Part shown: piece by piece, positions 13,053 to 24,988 of the stretch
Position numbering within the stretch: the first letter of the stretch is position 1
Layout of the letters: every line of letters starts with the position of its first letter
Source of the DNA: Hydrogenophaga taeniospiralis CCUG 15921
Lineage (GTDB): Bacteria; Pseudomonadota; Gammaproteobacteria; Burkholderiales; Burkholderiaceae_C
Direction of reading: 5' to 3'
Length of the DNA: 64,000 nucleotides
Assembly: GCF_001592305.1 (NCBI RefSeq)
Contig: NZ_BCWR01000011.1
Span: forward strand, 62,001-126,000
Program-made: the position numbers and the translations under genes
Notes under the pieces: model-generated
What the model was told of the DNA's origin: nothing
Seen by the model: only the letters and a program-made list of their open reading frames with translations
The model's database searches: none

Positions 13053-13209
13053 CCCCTCCCCGCCCGGCAGTGCCCGGGCTGAACCCTCGCCTGCGCGGCG
13101 GGTGGCGCGGCGGCGCCATGACCCCCTAAGATGCATGGACGATGGCCAGCCCCTGGCGCGGCGCCATGGGCGGCGCTTCCCCCGGCGCTCCCGACAGAAA
13201 GGCGATCAC

Positions 13210-15060
<1,851 letters not shown>

Positions 15061-15081
15061 AGGCTGGCCGGTCGCGGGCTT

Positions 15082-15507
15082 TCAGGAAATTTCGAGACGC
15101 TGCGAGGTGGCCGGCGCCTTCTTGGGCAGGGTCAGTTCCAGCACGCCGTCCTGGTACTTGGCCGTGGACTTGCCCTTGTCCACCGGGCTGTCCAGCCAGA
15201 AGCTGCGGCTGGCGTAGCCGTACTGCCGCTCGGAGCGGATGACGCGGTCGCCCTTCTTCTCTTCGCTTTCCTTCTTCATCTCGGCCGAGATGCTCACCTT
15301 GTTCTCATCGATGTTGATCTCGATGTCTTCCTTGCGCACGCCGGGGATGTCGGCCTTGAGCTTGTAGTCGCCGTTGCTTTCGGTGAGCTCGATCTTGATC
15401 TGGGGGGTGTGGCTGGTGCCACGGGCCACCCAGGGGCGCAGGAAATTGCGAAAAGCGTCATCGAAGAGATCGGTGGAGAACGGATCGCGGGTACTGAGTT
15501 CGTTCAT
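15082..15507 (-). CDS. Hsp20-family small heat-shock protein
   Basis: 141 residues with AAGGAG before the ATG at 15507. The alpha-crystallin domain covers about 35-132 (IELTESNGDYKLKADIPGV; the family's closing motif GVLELTLPK is near 121). It is an ATP-independent holdase that keeps unfolded proteins soluble. It faces the convergent ftsH-type gene and is divergent from the groEL-type operon. The TTGA-N6-TCAA box between hsp20 and groEL is 97 bp upstream. Confidence 0.92.
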   Translation of the reverse strand: MNELSTRDPFSTDLFDDAFRNFLRPWVARGTSHTPQIKIELTESNGDYKLKADIPGVRKEDIEINIDENKVSISAEMKKESEEKKGDRVIRSERQYGYASRSFWLDSPVDKGKSTAKYQDGVLELTLPKKAPATSQRLEIS

Positions 15508-15603
15508 GAAGCTTCTCCTTTGGGGTGGTATGCGGGATGACTGGAGCGCAAAGGCAGCAACGCGCCCCGACGGGAATGCTGCTACGCGGCAGCAGCCTGC
15601 GCA

Positions 15604-15617
15604 TTGAGTCTGGTCAA
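15604..15617. promoter_or_regulatory. FNR-type box (hsp20/groEL divergent region)
   Basis: TTGAGTCTGGTCAA fits TTGA-N6-TCAA, the recognition pattern of FNR/ANR/FixK regulators. Toward hsp20, weak -10 candidates (TAGCAG or CAGCAT) fall about 20-28 bp beyond the box, compatible with a class II activator promoter. The groEL-type operon lies on the other side, 152 bp away. An FNR-like protein is encoded at 22743. Confidence 0.65.
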
Positions 15618-15768
15618 TGGCGCGCCACGCGGCGACGCACCGCTGGCGGCGGCCCCAGATGCCACGGCATTGCGCACGCTCAATCGAACCTGCCCCGGGC
15701 GGTGGAAAGATGCGCTGAACGCCGCCATCACACAGATGCCCAGAGATTTGCCGCTGGAGGACTTGGAC

Positions 15769-17403
15769 ATGACAGCCAGACAACTGCTCTTTCGCGAAGA
15801 GGCCCGCGACAAGATCCGCCGCGGTGTCGATGCCCTGGCCGAGGCGGTGAAGGTGACGCTGGGCCCGCGCGGGCGCACCGTGATCCTGGACCGCGACTAC
15901 GGCGCGCCACAGATCGTGAACTCCGGCGTGCTGGTGGCCAAGTCGGTGGAGCTGGAAAACCGCTTCGAAAACATGGGCGCGCAACTGCTGCGCGAGGTGG
16001 CCTCGCGCACCAGCGAGATGGCGGGCGACGGCACCACCACCGCCACCGTGCTCGCGCACGCCATGATCCAGCAGGGCCTGCGCTACCTGGCCGGCGGCAT
16101 GAACCCGATGGACCTGAAGCGCGGCATGGAGCAGGCCATTGAAGCGGTGGTGGCCGAACTTCACCGCATGGCGCGGCCCTGCGCCAGCTCGCAGGAGATC
16201 GCCCATGTGGCATCCATCTCGGCCAACAACGACCGCTCGATCGGCGAGCTGCTGGCGCGCGCGATCGACAGCGTGGGCCGCGAGGGCGCGATCTCCATCG
16301 AAGACGGCTCGGGCCTGAGCAGCGAGCTGGAGGTGGTGGAGGGCCTGCAGTTCGATCGCGGCTTTCTCTCGCCCTACTTCATCAACAACCCCGAGCGCCA
16401 GAGCGCCACGCTGGAGGATGCGGCCATCCTGCTGTACGACAAGCGCCTGTCTTCGCTCAAGGACCTGCTGCCTCTGCTGGAAGAGGTGGTCAAGGGCGGC
16501 CAGCCCCTGCTGGTCATTGCCGAAGACATCGACAGCGATGCCCTGGCCACGCTGGTGATCAACACCATGCGCGGCACGCTCAAGGCCTGCGCGGTGAAGG
16601 CCCCCGGCTTTGGCGACCGGCGCAAGGCCATGTTGCAGGACATCGCCGTGCTCACCGGCGGCACCGTGATCAGCGACGAGCTGGGCCTGACGCTGGCCAA
16701 GGCCCAGCTCTCCGATCTGGGGCGGGCCAAGCGGGTGGAGGTGGGCAAGGACGACACCACGGTGATCGGCGGCGCCGGTACCACGCAGGCGATCCAGGAA
16801 CGCGTGGCCAGCCTGCGCAAGGAGCGCGAGGCCGCCACCAGCGACTACGACAAGGAGAAGCTGGAAGAGCGCATCTCCAGGTTGTCGGGCGGCGTGGCCC
16901 TGATCAAGGTGGGCGCGGCCACCGAGACCGAGCTGAAGGAACGCAAGATCCGCGTCGAAGACGCGCTGCACGCCACCCGCGCGGCGATCGAGGAAGGCAT
17001 CGTGCCCGGTGGCGGCGTGGCGCTGCTGCGCGCGCGGCGTGTGCTGGCGGACCAGCACGGCGGCTCGCTGGACCACGACTCGGGCATCCGACTCATCGCG
17101 CAGGCGCTGGAAGAGCCGCTGCGCTGCATCACCCGCAATGCGGGCGACGAGCCCTCGGTGGTGCTGCAGCGCGTGGACGACTCGGCCGAGCCCGCGTACG
17201 GCTACAACGCGGCCACCCGCAGCTACGGTGACCTGCTGCAGATGGGCGTGATGGACCCGGCCAAGGTGACGCGCCTGGCGCTGCAGAACGCCGGCTCCAT
17301 CGCCAGCCTGGTGCTGACCACCGACTGCATGATCGCCAACGCCCCGGCGCCCAAGGCCCCGCAGGACATGGGCATGCCCGGGGCCACCATGCCGGAGTTA
17401 TAG
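15769..17403 (+). CDS. groEL: GroEL-family chaperonin, orphan copy
   Basis: 544 residues. The ATG at 15769 follows GGAGG at good spacing; the frame is open further upstream but without support. Nucleotide-binding signatures [13 protein letters not shown] and [10 protein letters not shown] are present, and the protein is full length. The C-terminus ends [12 protein letters not shown] rather than a long GGM repeat. No groES is adjacent, so it is not the housekeeping groESL pair. It heads a plus-strand run with an alpha/beta hydrolase (33-bp gap) and two phosphoribosyltransferases. It may depend on GroES encoded elsewhere. Confidence 0.92.
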
Positions 17404-19321: not shown

Positions 19322-20329
19322 TCAGGCCGGCGCGTCCATGCGCAGCACGGCCGCGCCCTGGAAAGCGCCGCGGCGCAACTGGTCCAGCGCCTCGTTGGCC
19401 TGCTCCAGCGCGAACAGGTGCACCTCGGTCTGCAGCGGCGCCTGCCGCACCAGTTCGAAGAACTCGTCGCCATCGCGCCGCGTCAGGTTGGCCACCGAGC
19501 GCAGCGAGCGCTCGCCCCAGAGCCAGGCGTAGGGAAACGAAGGGATGTCGCTCATGTGGATGCCCGCACACACCACGCAGCCGCCCCGCTCCACGTGCCG
19601 CAGCGCGGCCGGCACCAGCGCGCCCGCCGGGGCAAAGATCAGGGCCGCGTCCAGCGGTTCGGGGGGCGTTTCATCCGAACCACCGGCCCAGGCCGCGCCC
19701 AGGCTGCGGGCAAACGCCTGGCTCTGTGCATCGCCCGGGCGCGTGAGCGCGAACACCTCGCGGCCCTGGCGCCGCGCCACCTGCGTGATCAGGTGCGCCG
19801 CCGCACCGAAGCCGTACACCCCGAGCCGCCGCGCATCGCCCGCCATGCGCAGCGCGCGGTAGCCGATCAGCCCCGCGCACAGCAGCGGCGCCAGGTGCTC
19901 GGGCGCGGTTTCTTCGGGCAGCGCGAAGCCGTAGCGCGCGTCGGCCACGGTGTACTGCGCGTAGCCGCCGGGGATCTGGTAGCCGGTGAAGCGCGCCCGT
20001 TCGCACAGGTTTTCCCGTCCGGCACGGCAGAACCGGCAGTGGCCACAGGTCCAGCCCAGCCAGGGCACGCCCACGCGTTGTCCGGCCTGCCAGCCCTGCA
20101 CGCCGGCCCCCAAAGCCACCACCCGGCCCACGATCTCGTGGCCGGGAATCATGGGCAGCACCGGGTCGGGCAGCTCGCCGTCCACCAGGTGCAGGTCGGT
20201 GCGGCACACGCCGCAGGCTTCCACCGCGATCAGGACCTGACCGACGCCGGGCTCCGGCACCGCGCAGTGCGTCAGGCGCAGGCGGGTACCGGGCCGCTCC
20301 AGCACCATGGCGCGCATCGTGTGGCTCAT
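19322..20329 (-). CDS. Zinc-dependent alcohol dehydrogenase
   Basis: 335 residues, medium-chain dehydrogenase fold. Catalytic zinc ligands are Cys42 (GVCRTDL) and His64 (PGHE). Structural zinc Cys residues are 95, 98, 101 and 109 (CGHCRFCRAGRENLC). The dinucleotide motif is GVYGFGAAAH. The ATG overlaps the stop of the response regulator (ATGA), so it is the third gene of the kinase-regulator operon. It probably interconverts an alcohol and aldehyde with NAD(H), useful as a fermentative electron sink under low oxygen (inference). Confidence 0.9.
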   Translation of the reverse strand: MSHTMRAMVLERPGTRLRLTHCAVPEPGVGQVLIAVEACGVCRTDLHLVDGELPDPVLPMIPGHEIVGRVVALGAGVQGWQAGQRVGVPWLGWTCGHCRFCRAGRENLCERARFTGYQIPGGYAQYTVADARYGFALPEETAPEHLAPLLCAGLIGYRALRMAGDARRLGVYGFGAAAHLITQVARRQGREVFALTRPGDAQSQAFARSLGAAWAGGSDETPPEPLDAALIFAPAGALVPAALRHVERGGCVVCAGIHMSDIPSFPYAWLWGERSLRSVANLTRRDGDEFFELVRQAPLQTEVHLFALEQANEALDQLRRGAFQGAAVLRMDAPA

Positions 20330-21039
20330 CTCGCTGCCCTTTCATTGCCATCGCCGTCCCCGGGCGGGGCCTCCCCCATGAGCTCCCGGCCCAGCCGGTG
20401 CTCCAGCCCGAAGCGCACCAGCGCGGCCGTGGAGTCCAGCCCCAGCTTTTCCTGGATGTGTTTCTTGTGCGTGCTCACCGTCTTGATCGACAGGTGCAGC
20501 GCGTCGGCGATGTCCACCGGGCGCTGGCCGCTCACGATGCGCTGCAGGATGTCGAGCTCCCGGTTGGTCAGGGTCTGCAGATCGTGCAGCGGGTGCTGCC
20601 CATTGAGCTGATGCACCACCCGCTCGGCCAGCGACGCCGAAAGGAAAACACCACCCGACGCCACCTTGCGCACCGCGGCCACCAGCTCGGTGACCGCGCT
20701 GTCCTTGGTGACGTAGCCGTTGGCCCCCGCCTTCAAGGCGCGAATGGCGTATTGCTCTTCGCTGTGCATCGTCAGCACCAGCACCGCCACCGAAGGGAAC
20801 TCGCTCTTGATGCGCTGGATCAGATCCAGCCCGCTCATGCCCGGCAGGGACAGGTCCACGATGGCGAGATCGAAAGCCTGGCGGCGCAGGCATTCCAGCG
20901 CCTGAAAACCGGTGCCGGCCTCGGTGATGCTCCACGGGTTCGCCTGCGGGTCCAGCAGCCGCTTGAGCCCCTCGCGCACCACCGTGTGGTCGTCCACCAG
21001 CAGCAGACTGAGCCCGGCGTGCAATGTGGTGTCGTTCAT
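20326..21039 (-). CDS. NarL/FixJ-family response regulator
   Basis: 237 residues. Receiver domain with LLVDDH, phospho-acceptor Asp62 in IVDLSLPG and conserved Lys in TKDS. The C-terminal LuxR-type helix-turn-helix spans about 160-215 (LTNRELDILQRI, IADALHLSIKTVSTHKKHI). It overlaps both neighbours by 4 bp, so kinase, regulator and alcohol dehydrogenase form one coupled operon. The partner kinase is directly upstream. Targets unknown; other genes of the island are the obvious candidates. Confidence 0.92.
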   Translation of the reverse strand: MNDTTLHAGLSLLLVDDHTVVREGLKRLLDPQANPWSITEAGTGFQALECLRRQAFDLAIVDLSLPGMSGLDLIQRIKSEFPSVAVLVLTMHSEEQYAIRALKAGANGYVTKDSAVTELVAAVRKVASGGVFLSASLAERVVHQLNGQHPLHDLQTLTNRELDILQRIVSGQRPVDIADALHLSIKTVSTHKKHIQEKLGLDSTAALVRFGLEHRLGRELMGEAPPGDGDGNERAAR

Positions 21040-22568
21040 GGCGCATCTCCAGCAACCGAACCGTTGTCCTGCGGCGCCGCCGTGGCCATCGCCGTGTCGT
21101 GTGTCCCGGATATGGGCAACCTCACCACCAGCTTCGCACCACCCTCCGGCAGGTTGCCGATGCTGAGCTGCCCTCCCAGCATGAGCACCCGCTCGCGAAT
21201 GCCGATCAGGCCGAACGAACGCCTCGGGGTCCGGGGCGGGTCATCGGGAAACCCGCTGCCGTTGTCCTCGACGCAGAGATCGATGTGCGATGCCGAGTGG
21301 GCCATCGACACCACCGCGCGCGTGGCGCGCGCGTGGCGAACGATGTTGGTCAGGGCCTCCTGCACGATGCGGTAGAGCGCGGTCAGGGCCTTCTGCGGCA
21401 TCGGGTCCGGCAAAGGGTCGAGCCGCAACACCACCTGCAGCCCCGTGCGCTTCTCGAAATCCTGAGCCAGCCACTCGATGGCCGCGCTCAGGCCCAGGTC
21501 GTCCAGCATCAACGGGCGCAAGTCCATCGAAATCCGGCGCGTGGCGGCCACCGTGTCGTCCACCATCTCGATCATGGATCGCATGTGCGCCGAGGGCCCA
21601 CCCAGCGCCCCGCTCCTCTCCAGCGCGGACAGCTCCAGCTTCAGGGCCGTGAGCCGCTGGCCCAGCTCGTCGTGCAGCTCGCGGGCGATGCGCCGCCGCT
21701 CTTCTTCCCGAGCGTCCACCACGCTCGCGGCCAGGTCCCTGAGGGTGCGCCGCGAGTCCAGCAGGTCGCGCCGCTCCTGTGATTGTTCCGTGACGTCGGA
21801 CAGGACCATCTGGACCAGGGTGCGCGAGTGGTCCGGCAACGCGGCCACCACCATCTCGACATCCCGTGACGATCCGTCGTGCCGGGCAATCTTCCCGTGC
21901 ACGGTCAACACCTCTTCCTGCCAGGCCAGCGCATGGGCCATTTTTTCGCGGACCAGGTCGTGCGCCACGGGAGCCAGGAGCGCGTAGATCGATTGCCCGG
22001 TCAGGCTCTCGCGACGCGCCATGCCAAACAGGCGGGCACATGCCCGGTTGGCGTAGACCACCCGCTCGCCTTGTGCGATCCAGATCGCCACAGGCAGCAG
22101 ATCAAACAGCGAACGCATGCGCCGGTTGAGCTGATCGATCAGCGCCTCCAGCCTGTGTTCGTCGCTCACGTCGCGCAGCAGCGCCGTGACATAGCGCTTC
22201 GCACCCCCAGCGCCCGCAACATCCACCTTGCAGATGGCCGCTTCCAGCGGGAACACCTCGCCGTTGGCCCGCAGGCCCACCAGCTTGCCGCGCTCGGCCA
22301 TCGGGCGCTCCACCACGTCCGATCCCATGAACTGCCGCACGTGATCGGCGTGCGGCGCCCGCAACGCATCCGGAATCAGGATGGACAGATCTCGACCCAG
22401 CGCCTGCGAAGCGCTGCGGCCAAACATGCGCTGCGCGGCGGGATTGATCATCACGATGCGCATCGATTCATCGATGGTGACGATGCCTTCCAGTGCCGCA
22501 TGAATGGCCCCGGTCTCGATGAGCGAATCCATGTCCTGGGCATCCGCAGGAGGACGGTGTTTGTGCAT
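21036..22568 (-). CDS. PAS-PAS sensor histidine kinase (HisKA_3 type)
   Basis: 510 residues. Two PAS domains (about 20-140 and 150-275), then a HisKA_3 dimerisation domain with RRRIARELHDELGQRLTALK (His299) and a HATPase domain with YRIVQEALTNIVRHA and FGLIGIRERV. No membrane helix is seen, so it should sense a cytoplasmic cue; PAS cysteines or cofactors cannot be judged from sequence alone. The family phosphorylates NarL-type regulators, matching the next gene. The gene is divergent from the FNR-like regulator. Confidence 0.92.
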   Translation of the reverse strand: MHKHRPPADAQDMDSLIETGAIHAALEGIVTIDESMRIVMINPAAQRMFGRSASQALGRDLSILIPDALRAPHADHVRQFMGSDVVERPMAERGKLVGLRANGEVFPLEAAICKVDVAGAGGAKRYVTALLRDVSDEHRLEALIDQLNRRMRSLFDLLPVAIWIAQGERVVYANRACARLFGMARRESLTGQSIYALLAPVAHDLVREKMAHALAWQEEVLTVHGKIARHDGSSRDVEMVVAALPDHSRTLVQMVLSDVTEQSQERRDLLDSRRTLRDLAASVVDAREEERRRIARELHDELGQRLTALKLELSALERSGALGGPSAHMRSMIEMVDDTVAATRRISMDLRPLMLDDLGLSAAIEWLAQDFEKRTGLQVVLRLDPLPDPMPQKALTALYRIVQEALTNIVRHARATRAVVSMAHSASHIDLCVEDNGSGFPDDPPRTPRRSFGLIGIRERVLMLGGQLSIGNLPEGGAKLVVRLPISGTHDTAMATAAPQDNGSVAGDAP

Positions 22569-22742: not shown

Positions 22743-23585
22743 ATGAGCCGCAGAAATCCGAGCCAGACCCACGGCGGGCAGGCCGATCGCACCGCCCGAT
22801 CCGCGGTCAGCACCATGGCCGATCTGTTGCAGTTGACGGGGACCCCTGTTGAACGTCCGCAGGCCGCCGAGCGGATCCCCGTCGTCCTTCGGCATCTCCA
22901 TGCGGGCGAGTGCCTGGTGCTCGAAGGTGCGCCCGTCGACGCCCTCTTTTTCGTGCGCGCAGGCACGTTCAAGATCTTCCGCACCGACGAAGACGGCTAT
23001 GAGCAGGTGCTGGCCTTTGCCATCCGCGGCGAAGTCCTGGGATTTGACGCACTGTGCATGGCGTCGTATCCGGTGGCCATCTCCGCCCTGGAGGCATCCG
23101 CCGTCCATGTGGTTCCCTGCAGCGACATACCGTCTCTGAGCCAGGCGCTTCCGGCCTTTGGCCAGATGCTGCAGCACTGCGGCAGCCGGACCCTGGCGCA
23201 CAGCCGCGAGCTGGTGGACATCATGGCGGCGGTCGCTTCCGAGGTGCGCCTGGCCCGCTTCCTGATCCAGCATTCCCGGCGCATGGCGGACTGTGGACTG
23301 TCGCCGAGCCGCTTCCTCCTGCGAATGGGGCGGCGCGAGATCGCCAGCCTGCTGGGTGTGGCGCACGAAACGGTCAGCCGCAGCTTCACCACCCTGGCCG
23401 CGCTGGGTCTGATCCAGGTGTGCGACCGAGAAGTCGGGATACGGGACATGGACGGCCTTGCGGCCTTCGCCCGCAGCACCCGGCGGCCGATGGACGCGCC
23501 CCTGATCGTGCGCGCCCGGCTCCCCGCCAACGGCAGCATGCCCGCGCAGAGCCGGCGCCCCACCGTTCACCGGCTCGCGGCCTGA
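22743..23585 (+). CDS. Crp/Fnr-family regulator without the FNR iron-sulfur cysteines
   Basis: 280 residues with GGAG before the ATG at 22743. The cyclic-nucleotide-type sensor domain spans about 45-160. The C-terminal helix-turn-helix contains REIASLLGVAHETVSR; Glu209, Ser212 and Arg213 match the residues FNR uses to read TTGA half-sites. Cys are at 57, 105, 126, 146, 184 and 227, but the clustered N-terminal Cys triad that holds the FNR cluster is absent. So it may recognise FNR boxes while sensing a different signal. Three such boxes lie within 8 kb. A longer Pro/Arg-rich tail follows the HTH. Confidence 0.88.
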   Translation: MSRRNPSQTHGGQADRTARSAVSTMADLLQLTGTPVERPQAAERIPVVLRHLHAGECLVLEGAPVDALFFVRAGTFKIFRTDEDGYEQVLAFAIRGEVLGFDALCMASYPVAISALEASAVHVVPCSDIPSLSQALPAFGQMLQHCGSRTLAHSRELVDIMAAVASEVRLARFLIQHSRRMADCGLSPSRFLLRMGRREIASLLGVAHETVSRSFTTLAALGLIQVCDREVGIRDMDGLAAFARSTRRPMDAPLIVRARLPANGSMPAQSRRPTVHRLAA

Positions 23586-23618: not shown

Positions 23619-23632
23619 TTGAGCATGCTCAA
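23619..23632. promoter_or_regulatory. Perfect palindromic FNR-type box (small RNA promoter)
   Basis: TTGAGCATGCTCAA is a perfect 14-bp palindrome of the TTGA-N6-TCAA class, 33 bp after the FNR-like gene. CACACT lies 22 bp beyond it, placing a start site near 23667 with the box centred at about -41.5, the class II activator position. Confidence 0.7.
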
Positions 23633-23666
23633 TGGCCACACGCCCCGGTGGCTGCACACTGCAATG

Positions 23667-23850
23667 GCCAATGGGGGATGTGATGAAAGTCCGCCCGCCA
23701 GCGGCGAGGTGAGGTTTCCCTTTAGGGGGAAAGGTCGTGGTGTCTCCGACACCACGAGGGGTGAAGGCACCCTCAGACCGGCAGGACGGTCGCACGCGAT
23801 GCCGGGGACCTTCACAAGGCCCGCCACCCGTCAGGGTCGGCGGGCCTTCT
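23667..23850 (+). ncRNA. Probable FNR-box-controlled small RNA (or leader of the CBS gene)
   Basis: The 350-bp gap between the FNR-like gene and the CBS gene has an FNR box, a properly spaced -10 candidate, and then hairpin-rich sequence: TTTCCC-TTTAG-GGGGAAA near 23708, the perfect stem TCGTGGTGTC/GACACCACGA near 23735-23757 and a strong terminator hairpin at 23816-23848. No convincing reading frame is present. E. coli FnrS is a known FNR-activated small RNA; I claim analogy only, not homology. Alternatively this is an attenuated leader of the CBS-domain gene, whose start is 88 bp after the hairpin. Confidence 0.5.
23816..23848 (+). terminator. Intrinsic terminator of the candidate small RNA
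   Basis: The stem AAGGCCCGCC (23816-23825) pairs with GGCGGGCCTT (23839-23848), and the enclosed ACCC/GGGT extends it around a GTCA loop with one bulged C. CTTCTTC follows, a weak T-rich tail. Confidence 0.7.
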
Positions 23851-23935
23851 TCATGTTGAAGGGCTGGCCCGTGGCCCCTTGAGCCCAAAAGGCCGGCCAA
23901 GCGCCATCCCCACCCGGCGCACCCAGGAGAAACCC

Positions 23936-24397
23936 ATGCGCGAAAAGATGAACGCCGCCGACATCTGCAACCGGATCGTCACCGTGGCCGAGCGCAGCAT
24001 GCCACTGGGCGAAGCAGCCAGCCTCATGCGAGAAAGGCACGTGGGCAGCCTGATCGTGGTGGACGACACCGGCGCCGGCCGCATCGCCGTGGGCATACTG
24101 ACCGACCGCGACATCGTGACCGCCGTGGTGGCCCAGGGACTGGATCCCGCCGTTCTCGCGGTCGAAGACGTGATGACCCCCAACCTGGTCACGGCGCTGG
24201 AAGAAGACTCGATCAAGGACCTGCTCTCGACCATGCGCCACAAGGGCCTGCGCCGGCTGCCGATCGTCACGCCACAAGGGTTGCTGGTCGGTCTGGTGAC
24301 GCTGGACGATCTGCTGCCACTGATGGCGGACCAGTTGCGCGACATGGCGGCCACCATCGAAGCGCAGTACCTGCATGAACGCAGGGACCGCCCCTGA
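23936..24397 (+). CDS. CBS-domain-pair protein
   Basis: 153 residues; the ATG at 23936 follows CAGGAGAAACCC. Two CBS domains fill the protein (about 8-70: LGEAASLMRERHVGSLIVVDD and VGILTDRDIV; about 80-140: VEDVMTPNLV, RLPIV and LVGLVTLDDLL). Stand-alone CBS pairs bind adenine nucleotides such as AMP or ATP and tune partner proteins. It lies after the small-RNA terminator and is convergent with the universal stress gene. The partner is unknown. Confidence 0.87.
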   Translation: MREKMNAADICNRIVTVAERSMPLGEAASLMRERHVGSLIVVDDTGAGRIAVGILTDRDIVTAVVAQGLDPAVLAVEDVMTPNLVTALEEDSIKDLLSTMRHKGLRRLPIVTPQGLLVGLVTLDDLLPLMADQLRDMAATIEAQYLHERRDRP

Positions 24398-24974: not shown

Positions 24975-24988
24975 TTGAGTCTGCTCAA
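24975..24988. promoter_or_regulatory. FNR-type box (usp/mgtE-like divergent region)
   Basis: TTGAGTCTGCTCAA, one base from the hsp20/groEL box. On the minus strand TAGGAT (24947-24952) follows after 22 bp, so the box would sit near -41.5 of the universal stress gene. The MgtE-like gene starts 119 bp away on the other side with no clear -10 at that spacing. Confidence 0.7.

Follow-up and report, generated by a model that had tools for sequence, protein, structure and literature searches.

A predicted free-standing, pseudoknotted small RNA family of Burkholderiales with a conserved FNR-superfamily promoter box

Introduction

Small RNAs (sRNAs) that respond to oxygen have been well documented in enterics, Pseudomonas and Neisseria. 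FnrS of the enterobacteria is a free-standing sRNA with a terminator that is activated by FNR and serves as a post-transcriptional arm of the low-oxygen response, and PhrS and SicX of Pseudomonas and AniS of Neisseria are induced in low oxygen or anaerobiosis. The Pseudomonas sRNA PaiI belongs to the same low-oxygen and anaerobiosis group (PMC5703892). No catalogued oxygen-responsive sRNA was found in the open-licence literature for the Burkholderiales group considered here. In the window, which is the whole 64-kb stretch of Hydrogenophaga taeniospiralis DNA that was analyzed, a gene-free gap following a CRP/FNR-family gene carries a palindromic box, hairpins and a terminator. This locus raises the question of whether the gap encodes an sRNA under FNR-type control and, if so, by which regulator and to what end.

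Results

Layout of the locus

The gap between the stop codon of the CRP/FNR-family gene (23585) and the ATG of the CBS-domain protein gene (23936..24397, + strand) measures 350 bp. It carries a CRP/FNR-family activator box, TTGAGCATGCTCAA, at 23619..23632 (+), a perfect 14-bp palindrome that occurs as a single exact copy in the 5.28-Mb genome, where just one more site lies within one mismatch of it. The -10-like hexamer CACACT (23655..23660, +) follows 22 nt 3' of the box. Placing the start 7 nt past this hexamer, at ~23667, puts the box center (23625.5) at -41.5, the class II spacing. From this start, the predicted sRNA extends for ~186 nt (23667..23852, +) to an intrinsic terminator (23816..23852, +) formed by a hairpin at 23816-23848 and a U-rich tail. 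The box, the spacing of CACACT, the gene-free gap, the terminator and a predicted transcript length of ~185 nt had all been put forward in the original prediction and were borne out here. No -35 element is present and the -10 is weak, as expected for class II but no independent proof of a promoter. The promoter scan returned no sigma-70 consensus.

Relatives of the RNA and their distribution

The original prediction recognized no sequence relative. This was wrong, as relatives are easily found: sequence and covariance-model searches brought the family to 28 Burkholderiales genomes, with 31 distinct loci between them. When 40 relatives were searched at the DNA level, homologs turned up in three other genomes of the same genus, one of them with two copies, and a family-level search added one more distant homolog. 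A six-sequence covariance model, a pattern scan of named genomes and a second model, R2, built from 23 sequences, completed the set. The pattern scan of genome contigs was too strict for members with GGGGACCUUCAC, so that its count is a lower bound; the hosts it named are all Burkholderiales and include Rhodoferax, Rubrivivax, Leptothrix and Inhella MAGs.

Within the genus, 9 of 67 genomes gave strong matches. A tenth (G821) gave a weak, truncated match, L066, which keeps the terminator and CCUUCACC with box-like palindromes close by; most of the core is gone, and the locus is apparently what remains of a truncated copy. The RNA is present twice in three genomes (L003 and L005 in G001, L061 and L067 in G803, L019 and L078 in G067), each copy with its own box, and the G067 copies are strongly diverged from one another. 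Beyond the family, no convincing members were found in 369 class-level and 349 order-level genomes, under strict filters that weak matches can escape. The sole weak match there, L091, coincides in part with a tRNA-like stretch, and the 110 nt preceding it contain no box. Matches L073-L077 lack both box and core and were rejected as false.

Against Rfam release 15 (4227 families), neither the window nor the RNA region of 11 relatives gave a match at threshold. The sub-threshold matches, Bp2_287 and ncr1175, are weak and aligned mainly on the terminator hairpin, and the Rfam scans gave no FnrS-family match at E values up to 5. In one relative, an Rfam match to 5_ureB_sRNA (L056:2488-2777, - strand, 106.9 bits) lies near a urease cluster and is probably due to the urease coding sequence. 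Searches of the open-licence literature turned up no account of this RNA.

A conserved box upstream of the RNA

A TTG(A/C)-N6-(T/G)CAA box stands upstream of the RNA at a near-constant distance in 30 of the 31 loci, the box of L065 being counted from a separate reading of the locus since it lies beyond the distance limit of the automated search. Only L017 departs from this, with a degenerate GTGCGTTTGCTCAA in the same position. Every locus with a located box has a -10-like hexamer 21-23 nt past it. The family thus carries the mark of an FNR-superfamily-activated sRNA, a conserved CRP/FNR-type palindrome near -41.5 of a stand-alone RNA gene, as reckoned from the inferred start. Because the models hold the RNA core alone and no promoter, the box provides a test of its own: it was present in all eight loci found only after R2 was built and absent from five sub-threshold false matches. 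Position 5 is G and position 10 is C in most boxes, and a canonical FNR box (TTGAT-N4-ATCAA) occurs in one member only, L010, as TTGATCTATATCAA. By its letters, the window box fits this consensus, which is of the FixK2 type.

Folding and covariation

The predicted folding energy of the transcript region is -102 kcal/mol (z = -4.7), and none of 200 dinucleotide shuffles was as stable. Structure was tested on a 31-row MAFFT alignment fitted to no structure. Pairing was found in 89.2% of cells, compared with 82.3% in shuffles, and changes on both sides in 26 of 37 pairs, compared with 13.3; none of 500 shuffles attained any observed pairing measure, in counts that ignore relatedness. When partners were slid by 1-3 columns, pairing fell to 38-57%.

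The core common to the 31 loci (23707-23852, + strand, as are all its parts) includes the 5' strand of helix A, UGAGG (23710..23714), followed by hairpin H1 (23715..23732) and hairpin H2 (23735..23757), the loop of which is often C-rich. The 5' strand of helix B, GUGAAGGC, lies at 23761..23768, and the 3' strand of helix A, CCUCA, at 23771..23775, with a near-invariant GAC after it. Hairpin C (23778..23805) sits within loop 3 of the pseudoknot, and the 3' strand of helix B, GACCUUCAC (23807..23815), directly precedes the terminator. Helix A (UGAGG:CCUCA) is thus crossed by helix B (GUGAAGG:CCUUCAC) in an H-type pseudoknot. Each helix is 98% paired with compensatory changes, as in L023 (CGGGG:CCCCG in helix A, UGAGAA:UUCUCA in helix B) and L017 (UGAGA:UCUCA and UAAAGG:CCUUUA). 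Given the slid controls and these independent combinations in distantly related members, the pseudoknot has good support. The covariance check across related genomes proposed in the original prediction came out in its favor, with hairpins and terminator conserved through compensatory change. Hairpins H1, H2 and C belong to the conserved core. The three strong hairpins described originally leave out the long-range pseudoknot. To our knowledge, a large conserved pseudoknot is uncommon in a free-standing regulatory RNA.

Three other candidate features were set aside. The first RNAalifold proposal was a nested fold of UGAGG with CCUUCA, which pairs in most members via G-U and was replaced by the pseudoknot because the nested pairing shows no covariation, its one double change equaling chance expectation. 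A local hairpin, GGAUG:CAUCC, is intact in 15 of 31 members and weakly supported; it is perhaps a folding intermediate. No conserved small ORF was found, as stops and frames are not conserved across members.

Conservation peaks in the pseudoknot junction, where CAGAC and GG are near-invariant, rather than in an unpaired seed, and the 5' leader shows little conservation from one genus to another. We lean toward an antisense mode of action for the RNA, with somewhat better than even confidence. The conservation peak makes a protein- or signal-binding role a serious rival, according to which the RNA is a protein-binding or ligand-sensing sponge or switch with the pseudoknot junction as its functional site. 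We hold this rival as a tentative, minority reading. The poorly conserved leader speaks for it; however, the neighboring genes imply no protein partner or ligand, and a structured scaffold with a fast-evolving seed is common among sRNAs. A related proposal, unlikely in our estimation, is a low-oxygen-induced structural RNA that captures and titrates a protein or serves as a pseudoknot switch for some signal; it would follow from the conserved crossing helices and from the two partners, CCUCA and CUUCA, with which UGAGG can pair.

The RNA as a free-standing unit

The RNA might instead be the 5' leader or attenuator of the CBS gene, its terminator hairpin switched by the upstream structure. The alternative pairing of UGAGG with CUUCA speaks for this; in the window, the CBS gene does share the orientation of the RNA, and a BON or CBS gene comes next in several relatives. 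However, the terminator is always kept, the alternative pairing does not covary, and the downstream gene differs by locus. Flanking genes as a whole vary widely, and the nearest confident downstream gene, by heuristic gene calls, is convergent on the RNA in L055, L056, L058, L030, L038 and L043. Downstream neighbors that change from locus to locus and often point toward the RNA argue for a free-standing sRNA separate from the CBS gene, and we consider the leader explanation very improbable. Even with no sigma-70 consensus at the promoter, a chance assembly of box, palindrome and hairpins in a GC-rich intergenic gap is refuted by the 31 homologous loci, the covariation and the positionally fixed box, and is given practically no weight.

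The neighboring regulator is FixK-like

The original prediction placed an FNR-activated sRNA beside its regulator. An FNR-superfamily box on a conserved sRNA is indeed present, but the neighbor is not FNR. This protein (22743..23585, +), a CRP/FNR-superfamily regulator and the candidate activator, has no N-terminal cysteines for an Fe-S cluster, whereas the 4Fe-4S cluster of FNR calls for an N-terminal CxxCx5C motif together with a central Cys. It scores 113.5 bits against the NCBIfam FNR model (cut-off 228), and the true FNR of the genome (L080, with CSSCNLRELC) lies on another contig. It also falls short of the Caulobacter FixK equivalog model (59 bits, cut-off 300). The protein is FixK-like only, cluster-less as FixK is, and not a FixK. 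Directly upstream of its gene, genes for a PAS-PAS histidine kinase and a NarL/FixJ-type response regulator occupy window positions 20326-22568; by analogy, the row of kinase, response regulator and FixK-like gene is reminiscent of the FixLJ-K cascade.

The regulator gene adjoins the RNA in a few close relatives only. Across the genus, a close ortholog (55-76% identity) was found in all eight RNA-bearing genomes tested and in none of 15 RNA-lacking ones, which have FNR-level matches only, or none. Common descent could account for part of this co-occurrence. In other genera, a close FixK-like ortholog (42-56% identity) is present in 6 of 12 RNA-bearing genomes; in the remainder the regulator must differ or the drafts are incomplete. 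FNR possibly acts on the RNA in genomes lacking the FixK-like protein.

Shared boxes in the surrounding island

Upstream in the window, a stress island (13102-17403) holds an ftsH-type protease gene (13102-15060) and divergent hsp20 (-) and groEL (+) genes. Two sites lie between hsp20 and groEL, the box-like TTGAGTCTGGTCAA (15604..15617, +) and the same-type box TTGCGCACGCTCAA (15670..15683, +). A second same-type box, TTGAGTCTGCTCAA (24975..24988, +), is found between a usp gene (-) and an mgtE-like gene (+). Strict-type boxes, TTGMGNNNNCKCAA, number three in the window, compared with 0.32 expected, and stand at the RNA, hsp20/groEL and usp/mgtE. Across loci, genes for CRP, CBS, BON, USP, two-component, GroEL and Hsp20 proteins recur near the RNA.

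The FixK2 regulon of Bradyrhizobium has the 14-bp consensus TTG(A/C)-N6-(T/G)CAA and includes groEL5, hspC2 and usp (PMC9104804). The box consensus is the same as that found here and the gene set overlaps the window island, although the Bradyrhizobium regulon is alphaproteobacterial and the hosts of the RNA are Burkholderiales. With its groEL, hsp20, ftsH, usp and CBS genes, the island appears by analogy to resemble this regulon, and the RNA is most simply read as a member of a FixK-like low-oxygen stress regulon. The open-licence literature yielded no FixK2-controlled homolog of the RNA.

Discussion

Taken together, the data point to a free-standing, FNR-superfamily-controlled, structured sRNA of a new family, a prediction from sequence to which we assign a probability of about 0.8. 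The organization was originally likened to FnrS. That likeness holds insofar as both are free-standing sRNAs with a terminator at an FNR-superfamily site, with a role in the low-oxygen response presumed for the RNA described here, but this RNA is not an FnrS homolog. It is longer and has a conserved pseudoknot, its box is mostly of TTG(A/C)G type, and its likely activator in the clade of the window is FixK-like. The best reading is that it would form a separate, uncatalogued family that works like FnrS.

RydC, an E. coli sRNA of ~64 nt, is likewise built on a pseudoknot and an intrinsic terminator, whereas the present RNA spans ~186 nt, has three further hairpins and matches no Rfam family. 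PhrS, PaiI, SicX and AniS belong to other organisms and are set apart from it by the absence of any Rfam match at threshold.

We propose that in low oxygen a FixK-like or FNR protein would bind at -41.5 and activate transcription, and that the RNA would be released as a discrete transcript, with the pseudoknot and terminator as its stable scaffold. The RNA may then act in trans on mRNAs, probably with Hfq, a protein found in each of the seven genomes examined for it, and contact them via the variable 5' leader or hairpin loops. It would thereby provide the post-transcriptional arm of the groEL/hsp20/ftsH/usp/CBS low-oxygen stress regulon. Target prediction, suggested originally as a further check, was run on the 64-kb window and gave no interaction above the shuffled background.

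The presence of this RNA family in at least 28 bacteria, its conserved knotted shape and its FNR/FixK-type site suggest that it is probably a free-standing regulatory RNA induced at low oxygen. The family offers a covariance alignment, a conserved promoter, a candidate regulator and close relatives that lack the RNA, and these resources make the regulation and targets of the RNA directly testable.
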